This document shows positions 19,045 through 26,427 of a DNA stretch of 42,694 nucleotides, piece after piece (position 1 is the stretch's first letter; each line of letters starts with the position of its first letter). Where the stretch lies: the NCBI GenBank assembly GCA_029007315.1, contig JAQXHO010000068.1, positions 1-42,694 on the forward strand. The letters are read 5' to 3'. The notes beneath the pieces are model-generated. The model saw only the letters and a list, made by a program, of their open reading frames with translations. It did not search any database and was not told the DNA's origin. The position numbers were made by a program, and so were the translations under genes. Source of the stretch: Oscillospiraceae bacterium (GTDB lineage Bacteria > Bacillota > Clostridia > Oscillospirales > Ruminococcaceae).

Positions 19045-19284
19045 TTTCTTTTCTCTCCTTATACATTTTTATCACTGTCTGATGCAGTTTCTTATATTAT
19101 ACATTAACAAGTGAAAAATAGCAACAGGTTTTTGCTATTTTTCTGAAACTTAAAAATATTTTTCTCATTGCTGTAAAATTCGTAGAAACATTTAAGATTG
19201 GTTTAAGTTTACTCAGTTATAATAACAACAAAAGCTAAGGAATGTTAAGTTCAGGGAAAAATGAGGTTAAACGGAGGTGAGTTT

Positions 19285-20034
19285 ATGGCTATAGAAACTT
19301 TTGAACGTAAGGAAATAAAGTTTATGCTGTCAGGCAGACAGTATGCTGCATTGTCAGAGCTTCTTCCGAAATATATGGAACCGGATCCTTATTGCAGAGA
19401 TGGAAAAACATACGGCATTTACAATGTGTATTACGATACACCCTGTGATGATCTCATACGCCAGTCAATAGAAAAGCCTTATTATAAGGAAAAGCTCAGA
19501 CTCAGAAGCTATATGTCGCCTGCTGCACCGGAGGACAGGGTTTTTCTTGAAATAAAGAAGAAAATCGGCGGTGTTGTCAATAAGCGGCGTGTGGTTTTAA
19601 CTCTGGAAGAGGCAGAACAGTACATTAGCTGCGGAGCGTATCCCGAGGATAACGGAAAGTATCTAAGAAAACAGGTTTTAAGCGAACTGGATATACTTTT
19701 TCAGCGTTATGACCTGGCACCCAAGCAGTACATAAGCTATGAACGTGCGGCTTACTTCGGAAAAGAGGATAAGAACTTCCGGCTCACATTTGACAGAAAT
19801 ATCACTGCAAGGAGATATGATGTTACACTTTCAAAGGAAAGCTTCGGCGAAAAGCTCATCTCTCCGGATTCTTACCTTATGGAAGTAAAGATAAGCGATT
19901 CAATGCCGGTCTGGCTTGCAGAACAGCTTGCGGCTCTGAAAATTTATAAAATAAGCTTTTCGAAATACGGAACAGCTTACAAAAATGAAATACTGCGAAA
20001 TTTAAACCAAAGGAGAGTTATATCTTATGTTTGA
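19285..20034 (+). CDS. VTC-domain polyphosphate polymerase-like protein
   Basis: MAIETFERKEIKFMLSGRQYAAL...YYDTPCDDLIRQSIEKPYYKEKLRLRSY...VFLEIKKKIGGVVNKRRV...YLMEVKISDSMPVWL: VTC/CYTH tunnel motifs. Confidence 0.9.
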   Translation: MAIETFERKEIKFMLSGRQYAALSELLPKYMEPDPYCRDGKTYGIYNVYYDTPCDDLIRQSIEKPYYKEKLRLRSYMSPAAPEDRVFLEIKKKIGGVVNKRRVVLTLEEAEQYISCGAYPEDNGKYLRKQVLSELDILFQRYDLAPKQYISYERAAYFGKEDKNFRLTFDRNITARRYDVTLSKESFGEKLISPDSYLMEVKISDSMPVWLAEQLAALKIYKISFSKYGTAYKNEILRNLNQRRVISYV

Positions 20035-20773
20035 TAATCTGAAAACTATGGCGGCAACTGCTGCAAATAATCTTTTTTCAACAGCCGATGCAGCAGGAAC
20101 AGCTTCCGAAGTGGGAATTATTGATATGCTTTCGGCAATGGGTCTTGGCGTACTGATGGGCATTCTGATCAGTGTTCTTTATATGTTTACCCACAGAAAA
20201 AGCAGCTATTCTTCAAGTTATGTGCTGACAATACTCATTCTTCCTGTTATTGTTTCCGTTGTGCTTGTTATGATTAATTCTATGGCAAGTGCGTTGAGCC
20301 TTGCAGGTGTGTTCACCCTTTGCCGTTATCGTACAGTTCCCGGCGACCCGAAGGATATTACATATGTATTTTTTGCAATGGCTGTAGGCGTTATCTGCGG
20401 TATAAACAGAAATGAATATATATGGTTTGTCTTTGTGTTCTATGCAGTTGTTGCAGCAGTGCTTCTTATTGTTGATATTTCAAGCTTCGGCAAGTGCAAA
20501 ACAAGCTCCATGACCCTTAAAATCACTATTCCGGAAGATATGAATTATGTTGGTCTTTTTGACGGAATTCTCAATCACTATACAACAAGCTGGAAGCTCA
20601 GAAGAATCAAGACAACAAATTTCGGTTCCCTGTTTGAGCTTGTATACAGCCTTGAAATGAAAAACGACGCAGACCAGAAGCAGTTTATTGATGAACTGAG
20701 AAGACTCAACGGCAATCTTACGGTAGTGCTTACCCTTTTCCGTTATGATGATAAGGTTTATGAGCAGAACTGA
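20027..20773 (+). CDS. DUF4956 domain-containing membrane protein
   Basis: 248 aa, about four TMs; SLAGVFTLCRYRTVPGDPKDITYVFFAMAVGVICG is the DUF4956 signature region. Confidence 0.88.
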   Translation: MFDNLKTMAATAANNLFSTADAAGTASEVGIIDMLSAMGLGVLMGILISVLYMFTHRKSSYSSSYVLTILILPVIVSVVLVMINSMASALSLAGVFTLCRYRTVPGDPKDITYVFFAMAVGVICGINRNEYIWFVFVFYAVVAAVLLIVDISSFGKCKTSSMTLKITIPEDMNYVGLFDGILNHYTTSWKLRRIKTTNFGSLFELVYSLEMKNDADQKQFIDELRRLNGNLTVVLTLFRYDDKVYEQN

Positions 20774-20797
20774 TTGCGTCAGACGAGGTGAAACAGT

Positions 20798-22144
20798 ATG
20801 GGTTACAAAAAAATAATTGTATGTATGGTGCTTTTTGCAATGGCGGCAGGACTTTGCGGCTGTAATGGCAATAGTGATGCCGACGAAGACAGCGCAAAGA
20901 TCACGGCAAAAGAAATTGAAATAGCTGAGGGCGCAGATGTTCCGGAGGCTGAAGATTCCGATAATGAAACAAGTGAATCCACGGAAACAGCATCTGTAAC
21001 CACGACGACTGTAACAGGCAGCAGTGTTTCTTCCGAAACAACTGTCACAACATCAAAAACAACAGCAGTTTCCACTACAAGCAAAAAGGCGGTTACAACG
21101 GTTAAGAAAACAGTTTATATTAATGGCGGCGGCAATTCTAATAATGGCGGCAATGCCGTTACTGCGGCTCCTAAAACTACAGCTAAAAATACAACTACAA
21201 CAACAACAGTTACAGAACCTGTTGCTCCGGAGGATGTGGACAAGTACATTGATTTTGCTTCAGCTTCAAGCGGCGATGGATATACCTTTGATGGCAGCAC
21301 TCTGAATATTTTCTCAGCAGGAACATATCATCTTTCCGGCGGTCTTGCAGGTATGGTATATATTAATGTAAGCAACGAGGAAAAGGTAAAGCTCAGACTT
21401 AACGGCGTTGGAATAGAAAATACAGGCGCTCCCTGCATTCAGGTTGAGAATGCAGACAAGGTAACGGTAAATGCTGTAAGCGGTTCTTCCAATTATCTGA
21501 AATGCTACAGCACTAATGCTGAGGGTGACGCTGCTCTTTTCAGCAAGGACGATCTGAAGATAAAGGGCGAAGGCTCTCTTTATGTATTCTGTGATAATGA
21601 GCATGGCATTTCCTGTAATAATGACCTTGAAATAGAGGAATGTCAGCTTACAGTCGACGCTGAAAAAACCGGAATCACTTCTCATAAAACCATATCCATT
21701 TATTCCGGAATCATAAATACAAACGGTGACAACTGCGGCATACGTTCAAGAGATTATATCGGAATAGAAGGCGGATATGTTGCTGCCTGCGGAGGAAAAA
21801 AGACCGGCGCAGACAGAGGCGGCATTATTTCTGATACCGGTAATTTCTGCATTGCAGGAGGTACTGTTATTGCTGTAGGTACAAATCAGACTGTTCCTTA
21901 TGGTCAGAATACAGCAGTGTTCTCTTTCCCTGAAGTAATACCCAAGGAAAATACTCTTGCAGTATCTGTAAACGGTATGACCCTTGCCTCAGTTCAGCCG
22001 AATAAAAAATATACCTGTGCCCTTATAAGCGACCCGAATCTAGGCATTGGCGTTCTTTGCGACGTATGGCTTGCCGACGTATGGTATGATAATTTTACGC
22101 TTACTGACGGAATAACACAGGCTGCACTTGATGGTGTGCAGTAA
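20798..22144 (+). CDS. Carbohydrate-binding beta-helix lipoprotein (Cthe_2159-like family)
   Basis: Lipobox (MAAGLCGCNG), Thr/Ser-rich linker, then beta-helix-like repeats (NVSNEEKVKLRLNGVGIENTGAPCIQVENADKVTVNA...CDNEHGISCNNDLEIE). Confidence 0.8.
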   Translation: MGYKKIIVCMVLFAMAAGLCGCNGNSDADEDSAKITAKEIEIAEGADVPEAEDSDNETSESTETASVTTTTVTGSSVSSETTVTTSKTTAVSTTSKKAVTTVKKTVYINGGGNSNNGGNAVTAAPKTTAKNTTTTTTVTEPVAPEDVDKYIDFASASSGDGYTFDGSTLNIFSAGTYHLSGGLAGMVYINVSNEEKVKLRLNGVGIENTGAPCIQVENADKVTVNAVSGSSNYLKCYSTNAEGDAALFSKDDLKIKGEGSLYVFCDNEHGISCNNDLEIEECQLTVDAEKTGITSHKTISIYSGIINTNGDNCGIRSRDYIGIEGGYVAACGGKKTGADRGGIISDTGNFCIAGGTVIAVGTNQTVPYGQNTAVFSFPEVIPKENTLAVSVNGMTLASVQPNKKYTCALISDPNLGIGVLCDVWLADVWYDNFTLTDGITQAALDGVQ

Positions 22145-22176
22145 AATTTGCTTTCTTTCTTTCATTCACTACTATA

Positions 22177-22223
22177 TAAAACGTGCATATTTTAAGCTAA
22201 ACGCTTTGAATATGCACGTTTTA
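22177..22223. terminator. Intrinsic terminator after the VTC/DUF4956 operon
   Basis: Perfect 15-bp stem TAAAACGTGCATATT / AATATGCACGTTTTA. Confidence 0.7.
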
Positions 22224-22277
22224 CTTTTATATAGGATTAAAAAACAAAAACTTGTAGCTGAGATTATATAATGCTAT

Positions 22278-22305
22278 TGACAAATTATATAATTGTGGTA
22301 TAATA
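22278..22305 (+). promoter_or_regulatory. Sigma-A promoter for the RHH-clpB operon, embedded in palindromic operator-like repeats
   Basis: TTGACA (22278-22283), 16-bp spacer, TATAAT (22300-22305); palindromes at 22264-22273, 22284-22295 and 22299-22312. Confidence 0.75.
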
Positions 22306-22342
22306 TTATACAAGAACAGATGAGAGAAAGAAGGTGCTGCCT

Positions 22343-23005
22343 GTGAAGAAAAGTGTATACAGCGTTGTGCTTATGGATCATGTGGTACAGGCAATTGATG
22401 AGCTTGCTGCAAGGCAGGGTACCAGCAGATCCAATCTGATAAATCAGATACTTGCGCAGCACGTTTGCTGTACTACTCCGGAAATGCAGATGCAGTCGGT
22501 ATTTTCCGTAATGGAAGAGCAGATGAACAGAATGTTCCGCATAGAAGCACAGGCGTCTGAAGCCATGCTTTCAATGCACAGTGCCTTGAGGTACAAGTAT
22601 AGACCTGCACTGAAGTACAGCGTGGAGCTTATGCGTGAGCCTACTGATATGCAGCTGGGCTGGCTGAGAATATCCTGCCGCACTCAGAGCAAGCCTTTGC
22701 TTCTTGCAATGGAGGATTTTTTCAGACTGTGGATAAGTCTGGAGATATCTGCCTTTCCCGAATACAGAAATATTGAAGGAATGTATGTTCTTGCACCGGG
22801 CAGAATGACAAGGTGTATTCTCCGAAGCGGTGACAGAACAGCAGAGGAAACCGGTGAAGCTATAAGCAAATATATAAATGTATTTGACAAGCTGATCCAG
22901 ATGTATTTTTCTGGAATGCAAGAGGGTGTTCCGGAGGAGATACTGAAAAAACAAACCGCAGAGGGCTATAAAAAGCTGGCTGCAGAGGAAAAAGAATTAA
23001 TTTAA
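22343..23005 (+). CDS. Ribbon-helix-helix N-terminal domain protein, putative regulator
   Basis: GTG start at 22343 behind AGAAGG; N-term KKSVYSVVLMDHVVQAIDELAARQGTSRSNLINQILAQHV is RHH-like; conserved-looking C-terminal domain of unknown function. Confidence 0.65.
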   Translation: MKKSVYSVVLMDHVVQAIDELAARQGTSRSNLINQILAQHVCCTTPEMQMQSVFSVMEEQMNRMFRIEAQASEAMLSMHSALRYKYRPALKYSVELMREPTDMQLGWLRISCRTQSKPLLLAMEDFFRLWISLEISAFPEYRNIEGMYVLAPGRMTRCILRSGDRTAEETGEAISKYINVFDKLIQMYFSGMQEGVPEEILKKQTAEGYKKLAAEEKELI

Positions 23006-23020
23006 AACGGAGGTATTGTT

Positions 23021-25618
23021 ATGAATGTACAGAAGCTTACAGAAAAATCCCTTGAAGCAATAAGAAGTGCAAATGAACTGGCGGCAGAGTATAATCATAA
23101 TGCCATTGAACAGGAGCATATACTTCACGCACTGCTTTCACAGGAGGGCGGACTTATCCCGGAACTTTTTAAGAAAATGGGAAAGGAAACCGAAAGCATA
23201 AAAAAATCCGTTGAAGCAAAACTGAGGGCAATGCCTTCAGTAACGGGTTCCGGAAGAAACCCCGAAAGCGTTTACGTTTCAAGAGATGCAGACAGCGCAC
23301 TTTCAGAGGCTGAAAAGCAGGCTGCCAGAATGAAGGATGAATATGTCTCAGTGGAACATCTTATGCTGGGCATATTTGAAACAGCAGACAAAAATGTTAA
23401 AGAGATATTCAGGACATTTAATATTACTAAAAATGATTTTCTGAAAGCACTTATGGAAGTGCGTGGAAATCAGCGGGTTACAGGACAGAATCCGGAGGAA
23501 ACCTATGATGTGCTGAAAAAGTACGGTCAGGATCTTGTGGAGCTTGCTAAAAACGGAAAACTGGATCCGGTTATCGGACGTGACAGCGAGATAAGAAACG
23601 TTATCCGCATTCTCTCCAGAAAAACAAAGAATAATCCTGTGCTTATCGGTGAACCCGGTGTTGGTAAAACCGCTATTGCAGAGGGACTTGCATTGAGAAT
23701 AGTGAGAGGCGACGTTCCTGATAATCTGAAGGACAGAAAAGTATTCTCCCTTGATATGGGCGCACTTGTTGCAGGTGCTAAATACCGTGGTGAATTTGAA
23801 GAGAGATTCAAGGCTGTTCTTTCTGAAATTAAAAAGAGTGAGGGCGGTATAATCCTCTTTATAGATGAACTGCATACTATTGTTGGTGCTGGCAAATCTG
23901 ACGGTGCAATGGATGCAGGCAATCTTCTGAAACCAATGCTTGCAAGAGGTGAACTCCACTGCATCGGTGCAACAACTCTTAATGAGTACCGCCAGTATAT
24001 CGAAAAGGACGCTGCCCTTGAAAGACGTTTCCAGCCTGTAATGGTTGATGAGCCAACTGTTGAGGACGCAATATCCATTCTCCGTGGCTTAAAGGAAAGG
24101 TATGAGGTTTTCCACGGCGTTAAGATACAGGACCAGGCTCTTATTGCTGCGGCAACTCTTTCCGACAGATATATTTCTGACAGATTCCTGCCGGATAAGG
24201 CTATTGACCTTGTGGATGAAGCCTGCGCTCTTATAAGGACTGAAATGGATTCCATGCCTACTGAACTTGATGAGATACAGAGAAAGATCATTCAGCATGA
24301 GATTGAAGAGGCTGCACTTAAAAAGGATGACAGCGCATTGTCCCAGGAGCATTTGAAAGAGGTTCAGCAGGAACTTTCTGAGATGAGAGAGCAGTTCCAT
24401 GAGATGAAGGCTAAATGGGAAAATGAGAAAAGCGATATTTCAAAGGTTCAGAAACTGCGTGAGGAGCTTGAAAAGATCGGTGGAGAAATCGAAAGAGCAG
24501 AACGTGACTATGACCTTAACCGTGCGGCAGAGCTTAAATACGGAAAACTTCCTCAGCTGAAGAAGGAACTTGCCGAGGAGGAGGCAAAGGCTGAAAAGCA
24601 GAAAAATGAGGGTACGCTTCTTCGTGACAAGGTGACGGAGGAGGAAATTGCCAAGATAGTTGCAAGGTGGACGGGCATACCGGTTTCAAAGCTTATGGAA
24701 GGCGAAAGAGAAAAGCTTCTTCATATGGAAGACATTCTTCATAAGCGTGTTATCGGTCAGGACGAAGCTGTAAGAAAGGTAAGCGACGCTATCCTTCGTT
24801 CACGTGCAGGCATTCAGGATCCCAACAGACCTCTCGGTTCGTTCCTGTTCCTTGGTCCTACAGGCGTGGGAAAGACCGAGCTTGCAAAGGCTCTGGCAGA
24901 AGCTCTCTTTGATGATGAGTCAAACATTGTCCGTATCGACATGAGTGAATACATGGAGAAATACAGTGTGAGCCGTCTTATCGGTGCACCTCCCGGATAT
25001 GTTGGATATGAAGAGGGCGGTCAGCTCACAGAGGCTGTCCGGAGAAAGCCGTATTCCGTTGTACTGCTTGATGAGGTCGAGAAGGCACATCCCGATGTAT
25101 TCAACGTTCTTCTCCAGGTGCTTGACGACGGACGCATTACAGACTCACAGGGCAGAACAGTTGATTTCAAGAATACTATAATCATTCTCACATCAAACCT
25201 TGGTTCACACTATATACTTGAAGGAACAAATGAGGACGGTACTATTTCTGATGAGGCAAGAAAGGATGTTGATGCACTCCTTAAACAGTCATTCAGACCT
25301 GAATTTCTCAACCGTCTTGATGAGATCGTATTCTATAAACCTCTTACAAGAACAGAGATCTACCGCATTGTTGACCTTATGCTGGAGAGTCTTAAAAAGC
25401 GTCTGGCTGACAGACAGCTTGGACTTGAAGTTTCAGACAAGGCAAAGGAATATATAGTGTCCCAGGGATATGATGTAAGCTTCGGAGCAAGACCGCTGAG
25501 AAGATTTATTCAGCAGAAACTTGAAACCCTTGCTGCCCGTATGATAATAGAAAAAGACCCGGTTCCCGGCAAAATTATACATGTTGATTTTGACGGACGT
25601 GAACTTACAGCCGAATAA
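23021..25618 (+). CDS. clpB: ATP-dependent chaperone ClpB
   Basis: 865 aa; two AAA modules ([31 protein letters not shown]), long coiled-coil middle domain, Clp N domain. Confidence 0.97.
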
Positions 25619-25702
25619 TGCCATGAATACGTGTATTTTTCAATAAAAATTTGCTCAAAATACAGCCATATTCCGTGCAAACGTCAGTTTTCTCCGAAAA
25701 TC

Positions 25703-25731
25703 TTGACAAACCCGGAATAATAGTATATAAT
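25703..25731 (+). promoter_or_regulatory. Sigma-A promoter for the HU gene
   Basis: TTGACA (25703-25708), 17-bp spacer, TATAAT (25726-25731). Confidence 0.85.
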
Positions 25732-25763
25732 TCCAGTAGACTAAAAATTTGGAGGAAAACACA

Positions 25764-26039
25764 ATGACAAAAGCAGAACTGATTCAGGCGATGCAAATAA
25801 AGAATGAATGCACCAAGAAGGATGCAGAGAAGGCTGTAAACAGTGTATTTGCTGTAATTACAGAAGCACTGTCTGCCGGTGATAAGGTGACAGTATCAGG
25901 CTTTGGTTCTTTTGAAGTGCGTGACCGCAATGCCAAGGAGTGCAAGAATCCTAAGACTGGTGAAACAATCCAGGTTCCGGCATCTAAGGCACCGGTATTC
26001 AAGGCAAGCAAGAATCTTAAGGAAGTTGTAAACAAGTAA
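25764..26039 (+). CDS. hup: HU family DNA-binding protein
   Basis: MTKAELIQAMQIKNECTKKDAEKAVNSVFAVITEALSAGDKVTVSGFGSFEVRDRNAKECKNPKTGETIQVPASKAPVFKASKNLKEVVN. Confidence 0.97.
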   Translation: MTKAELIQAMQIKNECTKKDAEKAVNSVFAVITEALSAGDKVTVSGFGSFEVRDRNAKECKNPKTGETIQVPASKAPVFKASKNLKEVVNK

Positions 26040-26058
26040 TAGTCAGGAGGATTTTAAA

Positions 26059-26427
26059 ATGGCTGCAAGAAAGAAGACAGTTGCTGCTGAGGTTAAGTCA
26101 GCAGAAACAAAGGTTACTGACAAGGCTGAAACAGCTGTAAAGGCTGCTGAAACAAAGACAGCTCCTAAGGCTGCTCCCAAGGCTGCTCCAAAAGATGCTG
26201 AAGCAAAGCCGGCTGCAAAGAAGGCTTGCAAGAAGGTTAGCATTGAGCTTCAGTATGCTGATAAGTGCGTAGATGTTGCTTCACTGGAAAGCAAGGCTGT
26301 AGCTGCATGGGCAGAAGCAACAGGTAATGCAAAGACTGCTGCAAAGAGCATTAATCTCTATGTAAAGCCTGAGGAAGATACCCTTTACTATGTAATTGAG
26401 GGTGACACAGGTATGGTTGAGCTTTAA
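26059..26427 (+). CDS. DUF6465 family protein with Lys/Ala/Pro-rich N-terminal tail
   Basis: 122 aa; tail AETKTAPKAAPKAAPKDAEAKPAAKKACKK followed by KVSIELQYADKCVDVASLESKAVAAWAEATG; strong RBS (GGAGG). Confidence 0.75.
   Translation: MAARKKTVAAEVKSAETKVTDKAETAVKAAETKTAPKAAPKAAPKDAEAKPAAKKACKKVSIELQYADKCVDVASLESKAVAAWAEATGNAKTAAKSINLYVKPEEDTLYYVIEGDTGMVEL

Follow-up and report, generated by a model that had tools for sequence, protein, structure and literature searches.

A conserved 38-bp dyad marks a candidate RHH autorepressor operon with clpB in Ruminococcaceae and related Clostridia

Results

An RHH gene directly precedes clpB

The window (the entire 42,694-nucleotide stretch of Oscillospiraceae DNA that was analyzed) carries on its forward strand a gene for an RHH regulator (22334 to 23005) followed by clpB (23021 to 25618). 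The RHH open frame begins at nucleotide 22334, its likely start is a GTG codon at 22343 (VKKSVYS...), and the protein is encoded up to 23002. This gene is recognized by a Pfam RHH_1 score over the cut-off, by its membership in a conserved family of 220-amino acid proteins, and by structure models. The second gene encodes a full ClpB orthologue (TIGR03346, 1351.8 bits versus a cut-off of 1232.1; Pfam Clp_N, AAA, and ClpB_D2-small). A preliminary description of this DNA placed the end of the RHH ORF 15 nt before clpB, and this is indeed the distance from the stop codon to the clpB ATG.

The N terminus of the window protein matches RHH_1 (PF01402) at 20.6 bits versus a gathering cut-off of 20.5, and 24 of 26 RHH family members match this profile at E values up to 0.1. 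The ribbon strand of RHH proteins forms only in the dimer. The N terminus was modeled as a monomer only, wherein a stretch spanning residues 5 to 13 (with the invariant Y9 and S10) precedes helices at residues 15 to 27 and 32 to 44. CopG and NikR chains are among the weak PDB sequence matches of the protein, and no HrcA model (PF01628) matched it.

The C-terminal ~170 amino acids, which include invariant residues Y89, P91, Y95, R116, and F129, are also conserved within the RHH family, and no convincing Pfam or NCBIfam model was found for them. AlphaFold2 predicts this domain with a mean pLDDT of 93.9 and a pTM of 0.90 as a helix, three strands, a helix, two strands, and helices. The best PDB match for both C-terminal models is DR1245 (best TM-scores 0.39 and 0.44), and the predicted fold weakly resembles YbjN and type III secretion chaperones. 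All PDB fold matches of the domain are weak (E values 0.03–0.07, TM-scores 0.35–0.44, rmsd above 6), and because E values and TM-scores in these ranges are too weak for such an assignment, we do not claim membership in the YbjN/type III chaperone group.

Several neighboring features were also observed. Just upstream of the RHH operon, at 19261 to 22223, a VTC-domain gene, a DUF4956 gene, and a gene for a Cthe_2159-type carbohydrate-binding protein lie in a row. A strong inverted repeat resembling a terminator (AACGTGCATATT...AATATGCACGTT, ~22179 to 22223) is kept in close relatives. Directly 3′ of clpB, the region from 25700 to 26427 holds a gene for an HU-family DNA-binding protein, which apparently has its own TTGACA-type promoter, and then a DUF6465 gene.

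The linkage of RHH gene and clpB is nearly invariant

Among 60 relatives, 26 genomes (that of the window included) carry the RHH gene. Leaving aside the genome of the window, clpB is the next gene in 24 of the other 25, and the contig ends in the remaining one. The same arrangement was seen at 80 named loci from GTDB genomes: clpB lies directly 3′ of the RHH gene at 74 and beyond one intervening gene at four, and two sequences end too soon to tell. Thus, wherever the flanking sequence of a named locus is long enough, clpB follows the RHH gene (78 of 78). In a class-wide sample, clpB follows all 23 strong RHH matches, 19 of which lie outside the order, down to an RHH identity of ~27%. This constant linkage, seen in many families and beyond the order, makes the RHH gene practically a gene of the clpB operon. 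Six genomes of the order with domain-only RHH matches (E ~1e-4) were left out of the counts.

The intervening gene at three of these loci (L098:855-2168, L100:3696-4997, and L108:3575-4873) is a 430-amino acid gene with a possible C-terminal zinc ribbon, and a different gene of 162 amino acids separates the RHH gene and clpB at an R. flavefaciens locus (L113).

The promoter region contains a single conserved dyad

The RHH–clpB operon has a promoter that matches the sigma-70 consensus at 12 of 12 positions, with a −35 box TTGACA at 22277 to 22282 and a −10 box TATAAT at 22299 to 22304 on the forward strand, a 16-nt spacer, and a TG ahead of the −10 box. The −35 box is conserved in nearly all relatives, and the −10 box aligns among them with spacers of 16 to 17 nt.

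The preliminary description interpreted this region as three AT palindromes interleaved with the promoter. Three perfect palindromes are indeed present, each one base lower than originally placed: ATTATATAAT at 22263 to 22272, AATTATATAATT at 22283 to 22294, and GTATAATATTATAC at 22298 to 22311. The distance of 21 bp between the centers of the first two was given correctly. When the surrounding 133-bp stretch, which is 74% AT, is shuffled with its dinucleotides kept, 0.6% of the shuffles contain three perfect palindromes with a length of 10 bp or above, and 2.5% contain one that reaches 14 bp or above. These frequencies place the palindromes only modestly above chance.

To identify conserved bases, we aligned the promoters of relatives on the −35 box. 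The resulting footprint does not bear out an anatomy of three palindromes and instead reveals one 38-bp dyad, AAnTYG-N9-TTATATAA-N9-CRAnTT, centered on the first palindrome, a larger conserved element that had gone unnoticed. Palindromes 2 and 3 were rejected as independent operators because they are not conserved in relatives: only the left half of the second and the TATAAT portion of the third are kept. Judged by this alignment, palindrome 2 is a partly conserved spacer and palindrome 3 is the putative −10 box.

In the window, the candidate operator AACTTG-N9-TTATATAA-N9-CAAATT spans nucleotides 22249 to 22286 and matches the pattern (AAnTYGN9TTATATAAN9CRAnTT) without a mismatch; with up to two mismatches to a stricter pattern, it is the only site in the genome. 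Its center TTATATAA (22264 to 22271) lies within the first palindrome. The left arm AACTTG (22249 to 22254), whose conserved form AAnTYG lies 16 bp from the dyad center, falls outside the −35 and −10 boxes, and the right arm CAAATT (22281 to 22286) overlaps the −35 box. The arm centers are 32 bp apart, or about three helical turns. Among 81 unique sites, each of the eight central positions is 95 to 100% conserved, and the arm positions are mostly 93 to 99% conserved, with T/C and A/G tolerated at one position of each arm.

The dyad, with an 8- or 7-bp center and up to two mismatches, was found 5′ of 105 of 106 RHH genes, and the upstream DNA of the sole gene lacking it is only 79 nt long. This set combines the 26 relatives with the 80 named loci, such that some genomes are represented twice. 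The center has 8 bp at 91 of these genes and 7 bp (TTAATAA or TTATTAA) at 14. Within 230-nt upstream regions, a site of the 8-bp form with no more than two mismatches is present at 67 of the 80 named loci, where none is expected from shuffled sequences. Across families and orders, the 9-bp spacings stay fixed and both arms are kept, and the dyad is partly degenerate in family f72.

In the usual layout, the dyad center lies ~10 bp upstream of the −35 box, with one arm overlapping this box and the left arm clear of both promoter elements. The conservation of the right arm alone therefore proves little, since it overlaps TTGACA. However, three genomes (G065, G159, and G117) carry the complete dyad immediately 3′ of the −10 box, where the right arms (TTATCGAGTT, TTATCAAGTT, and TTCAACAAGTT, respectively) contain no −35 box, and the right arm CRAnTT is likewise kept without TTGACA at L090, L130, and L244. 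The fact that the dyad keeps its inner geometry while shifting relative to the promoter suggests that it is an operator rather than promoter sequence, and a position downstream of the −10 box would fit repression.

The dyad tracks the RHH gene and takes the place of CIRCE

The possible regulon was sought by a pattern search across genomes. A search of 247 genomes of the order found the dyad, with up to one mismatch, in 33 of 42 with the RHH gene versus 6 of 205 without it, and the latter frequency equals the rate of a control pattern. The additional dyads seen at htpG come from genomes that have the RHH gene. Two further matches with one mismatch, in G005 and G011, adjoin unrelated genes (an unclear ORF and an ABC-transporter ATPase gene), may be due to chance, and were set aside.

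HrcA and its operator CIRCE are widespread in these bacteria, with HrcA in 57 and CIRCE in all 60 of 60 relatives. The genome of the window encodes HrcA as a gene separate from the RHH gene (G000:C25) and has two CIRCE sites, neither of which is inside the window. The absence of CIRCE and CtsR-type sites from this locus had been remarked on before, and searches allowing up to three mismatches for each indeed found no CIRCE site and no tandem GGTCAAA box anywhere in the window. Upstream of the RHH genes CIRCE is also absent, with at least five mismatches at all 106 genes examined.

CIRCE with zero or one mismatch stands 5′ of clpB in 8 of 11 genomes that lack the RHH gene versus 0 of 19 that carry it (Fisher p = 3e-5, a value that overstates the evidence because the genomes are related). 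A ninth RHH-less genome has a decayed CIRCE copy and a tenth a CtsR-like box at clpB, and the dyad is absent 5′ of clpB in all 11. The region upstream of clpB in G017 (L182) was observed to have neither the RHH gene nor CIRCE, a CtsR box, or the dyad. On a clpB tree, the two states (RHH dyad or CIRCE) need four changes, at least two of which are forced by well-supported branches. The tree supports two to four exchanges at clpB, not dozens.

A second exchange was found at htpG, which encodes Hsp90. The two genomes sampled from genus g78 each carry a second dyad 39 to 42 nt before the htpG start codon (L157, G146:C9:20646-20683; L158, G101:C3:45237-45274), and CIRCE is missing from this gene. 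CIRCE with zero or one mismatch is present at htpG in 12 of 13 other RHH genomes with a locatable htpG start, the exception being G053. Because CIRCE is exchanged for the dyad at both clpB and htpG, the two sites seem to serve the same function.

A gene for CtsR (PF05848) was not found in the genome of the window, which is 85% complete, or in its 15 genus members. Among the 247 genomes, CtsR and the RHH gene occur together in 5 versus ~20 expected (p = 1e-7, uncorrected for relatedness). The five genomes with both (G050, G119, G121, G209, and G224) are possibly intermediates of regulator replacement.

Discussion

A proposed repressor circuit for clpB

Taken together, sequence conservation, the linkage of the two genes, and the exchange of CIRCE for the dyad strongly support the suggestion, made in the preliminary description, that clpB is under RHH-based rather than CtsR- or HrcA-based control at this locus. 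We consider it likely that the RHH protein represses the RHH–clpB operon through the 38-bp dyad, that proteotoxic stress relieves this repression, and that the system has replaced HrcA/CIRCE or CtsR at clpB. The best reading of these genomic patterns is that members of the RHH family are autorepressors of clpB that would be functionally equivalent to HrcA/CIRCE.

In the proposed circuit, the RHH protein would bind the dyad as a multimer and thereby block RNA polymerase at the near-consensus promoter, so that it would control both its own gene and clpB. When heat or a similar stress causes non-native protein to build up, repression would be relieved and ClpB would be made. The RHH/dyad pair would thus replace HrcA/CIRCE (or CtsR) at clpB, and HrcA/CIRCE would stay in use for other targets. 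Three elements of this circuit we infer from different observations. The RHH protein as ligand follows from the co-occurrence of its gene with the dyad, which is missing where this gene is missing. Its role as a repressor rather than an activator follows from the relocated dyads, and proteotoxic stress as the signal from the nature of the target genes and the replacement of CIRCE.

How the signal might be perceived is a more speculative matter. It is attractive to imagine that the C-terminal domain senses unfolded protein. The RHH protein might then be a one-piece proteostasis sensor whose chaperone-like C-terminal domain binds non-native polypeptide or ClpB and thereby frees the RHH domain from the dyad, a proposal that we hold only tentatively and judge rather doubtful at present.

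Other explanations for the dyad

The RHH protein could instead activate the operon from the dyad in the manner of class II activators, which bind near −41. Indeed, the dyad center is usually ~44 bp before the expected start site, where activators also bind, and the usual placement relative to the −35 box is compatible with such a role. However, a promoter that matches the consensus at all 12 positions and has an extended −10 element should need no help, the dyad of genus g46 lies downstream of the −10 box where an activator is implausible, and the site for which the dyad stands in, CIRCE, is a repressor site. We therefore regard activation as unlikely.

It is distinctly improbable that another conserved regulator binds the dyad and that the RHH gene is a co-regulated passenger. 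HrcA and further regulators are present in these genomes and could in principle serve, but the dyad is missing from the clpB promoters of the 11 RHH-less genomes. Moreover, the dyad tracks the RHH gene genome-wide, its extra htpG sites occur in RHH genomes, and RHH domains are what repressors of this type use to bind DNA.

The conserved block might also reflect nothing but promoter architecture (an UP-element, the −35 box, and the −10 box) with chance symmetry. In favor are its AT-richness, its overlap with the −35 box, and the ease with which AT palindromes arise here (a mean of 0.31 per shuffle). Nevertheless, we rejected the dyad as an UP-element or −35 artifact, and very little probability remains for this explanation: spacings of 9 bp and two arms are held across families and orders, the arms persist where TTGACA is lacking and where the dyad lies 3′ of the −10 box, and an UP-element would neither track one gene nor replace CIRCE.

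Finally, it is barely credible that the RHH protein belongs to an antitoxin-like module with ClpB as a mere neighbor. The RHH domain does match antitoxin models (NF050181 and NF050104) weakly, all far below cut-off, yet its partner is always clpB even at ~27% RHH identity, no toxin gene adjoins the RHH gene in the window, and the conserved 170-amino acid C-terminal domain lies outside the stretch matched by antitoxin models.

Implications of the proposed repressor circuit

RHH repressors and repressor-type heat-shock circuits are each of a known kind. In the literature searched, which took in only a minority of subscription journals, we found neither the 38-bp operator nor clpB repression by an RHH protein described. 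RHH proteins reported in a C. difficile heat proteome and in T. denticola stress arrays were considered and are unrelated to the RHH–clpB regulator. The textbook view assigns clpB of Firmicutes to CtsR and/or HrcA. A large group of gut Clostridia, including Ruminococcus, R. flavefaciens, R. callidus, Caproiciproducens, Merdimmobilis, and others, seems to rely on an undescribed putative repressor with a precise and predictable operator. The exchange of operators at the same promoter of two genes, clpB and htpG, presents a clear case of regulator replacement, and the system offers a directly testable stress switch in important fiber-degrading gut bacteria. If the sensor proposal were true, the RHH family would constitute a third class of heat-shock repressors in Firmicutes beside HrcA and CtsR, one that has been swapped with HrcA/CIRCE several times.

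Comparison with known systems

One close parallel is HrcA/CIRCE. Like the RHH dyad, CIRCE (TTAGCACTC-N9-GAGTGCTAA) is a long, spaced, near-perfect dyad at the promoters of chaperone operons, and in sister genomes it occupies the place of the dyad at clpB and htpG. However, the two elements share no sequence, RHH genomes keep a separate HrcA, and HrcA is a winged-helix protein of a family other than RHH.

CtsR is also a winged-helix protein, and its box consists of direct GGTCAAA repeats. The genus of the window has no detected ctsR gene, and the clpB locus of the window has no CtsR box. The likeness to the RHH system lies in the targets, as CtsR regulates Clp ATPase and ClpP genes in Gram-positive bacteria (PMC3472708).

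The C-terminal model agrees in its order of elements with the fold shared by DR1245, YbjN, and type III secretion chaperones (PMC3575483), and differs from it by weak scores and extra helices.

With the repressors CopG, Arc, MetJ, and NikR, the window protein shares an N-terminal RHH domain (PF01402), and these proteins typically repress their own genes by way of a symmetric operator. In contrast, the RHH–clpB operator spans 38 bp with three conserved blocks, its target is a disaggregase, and the protein adds a C-terminal region of 170 amino acids that has no convincing counterpart among Pfam and NCBIfam models.
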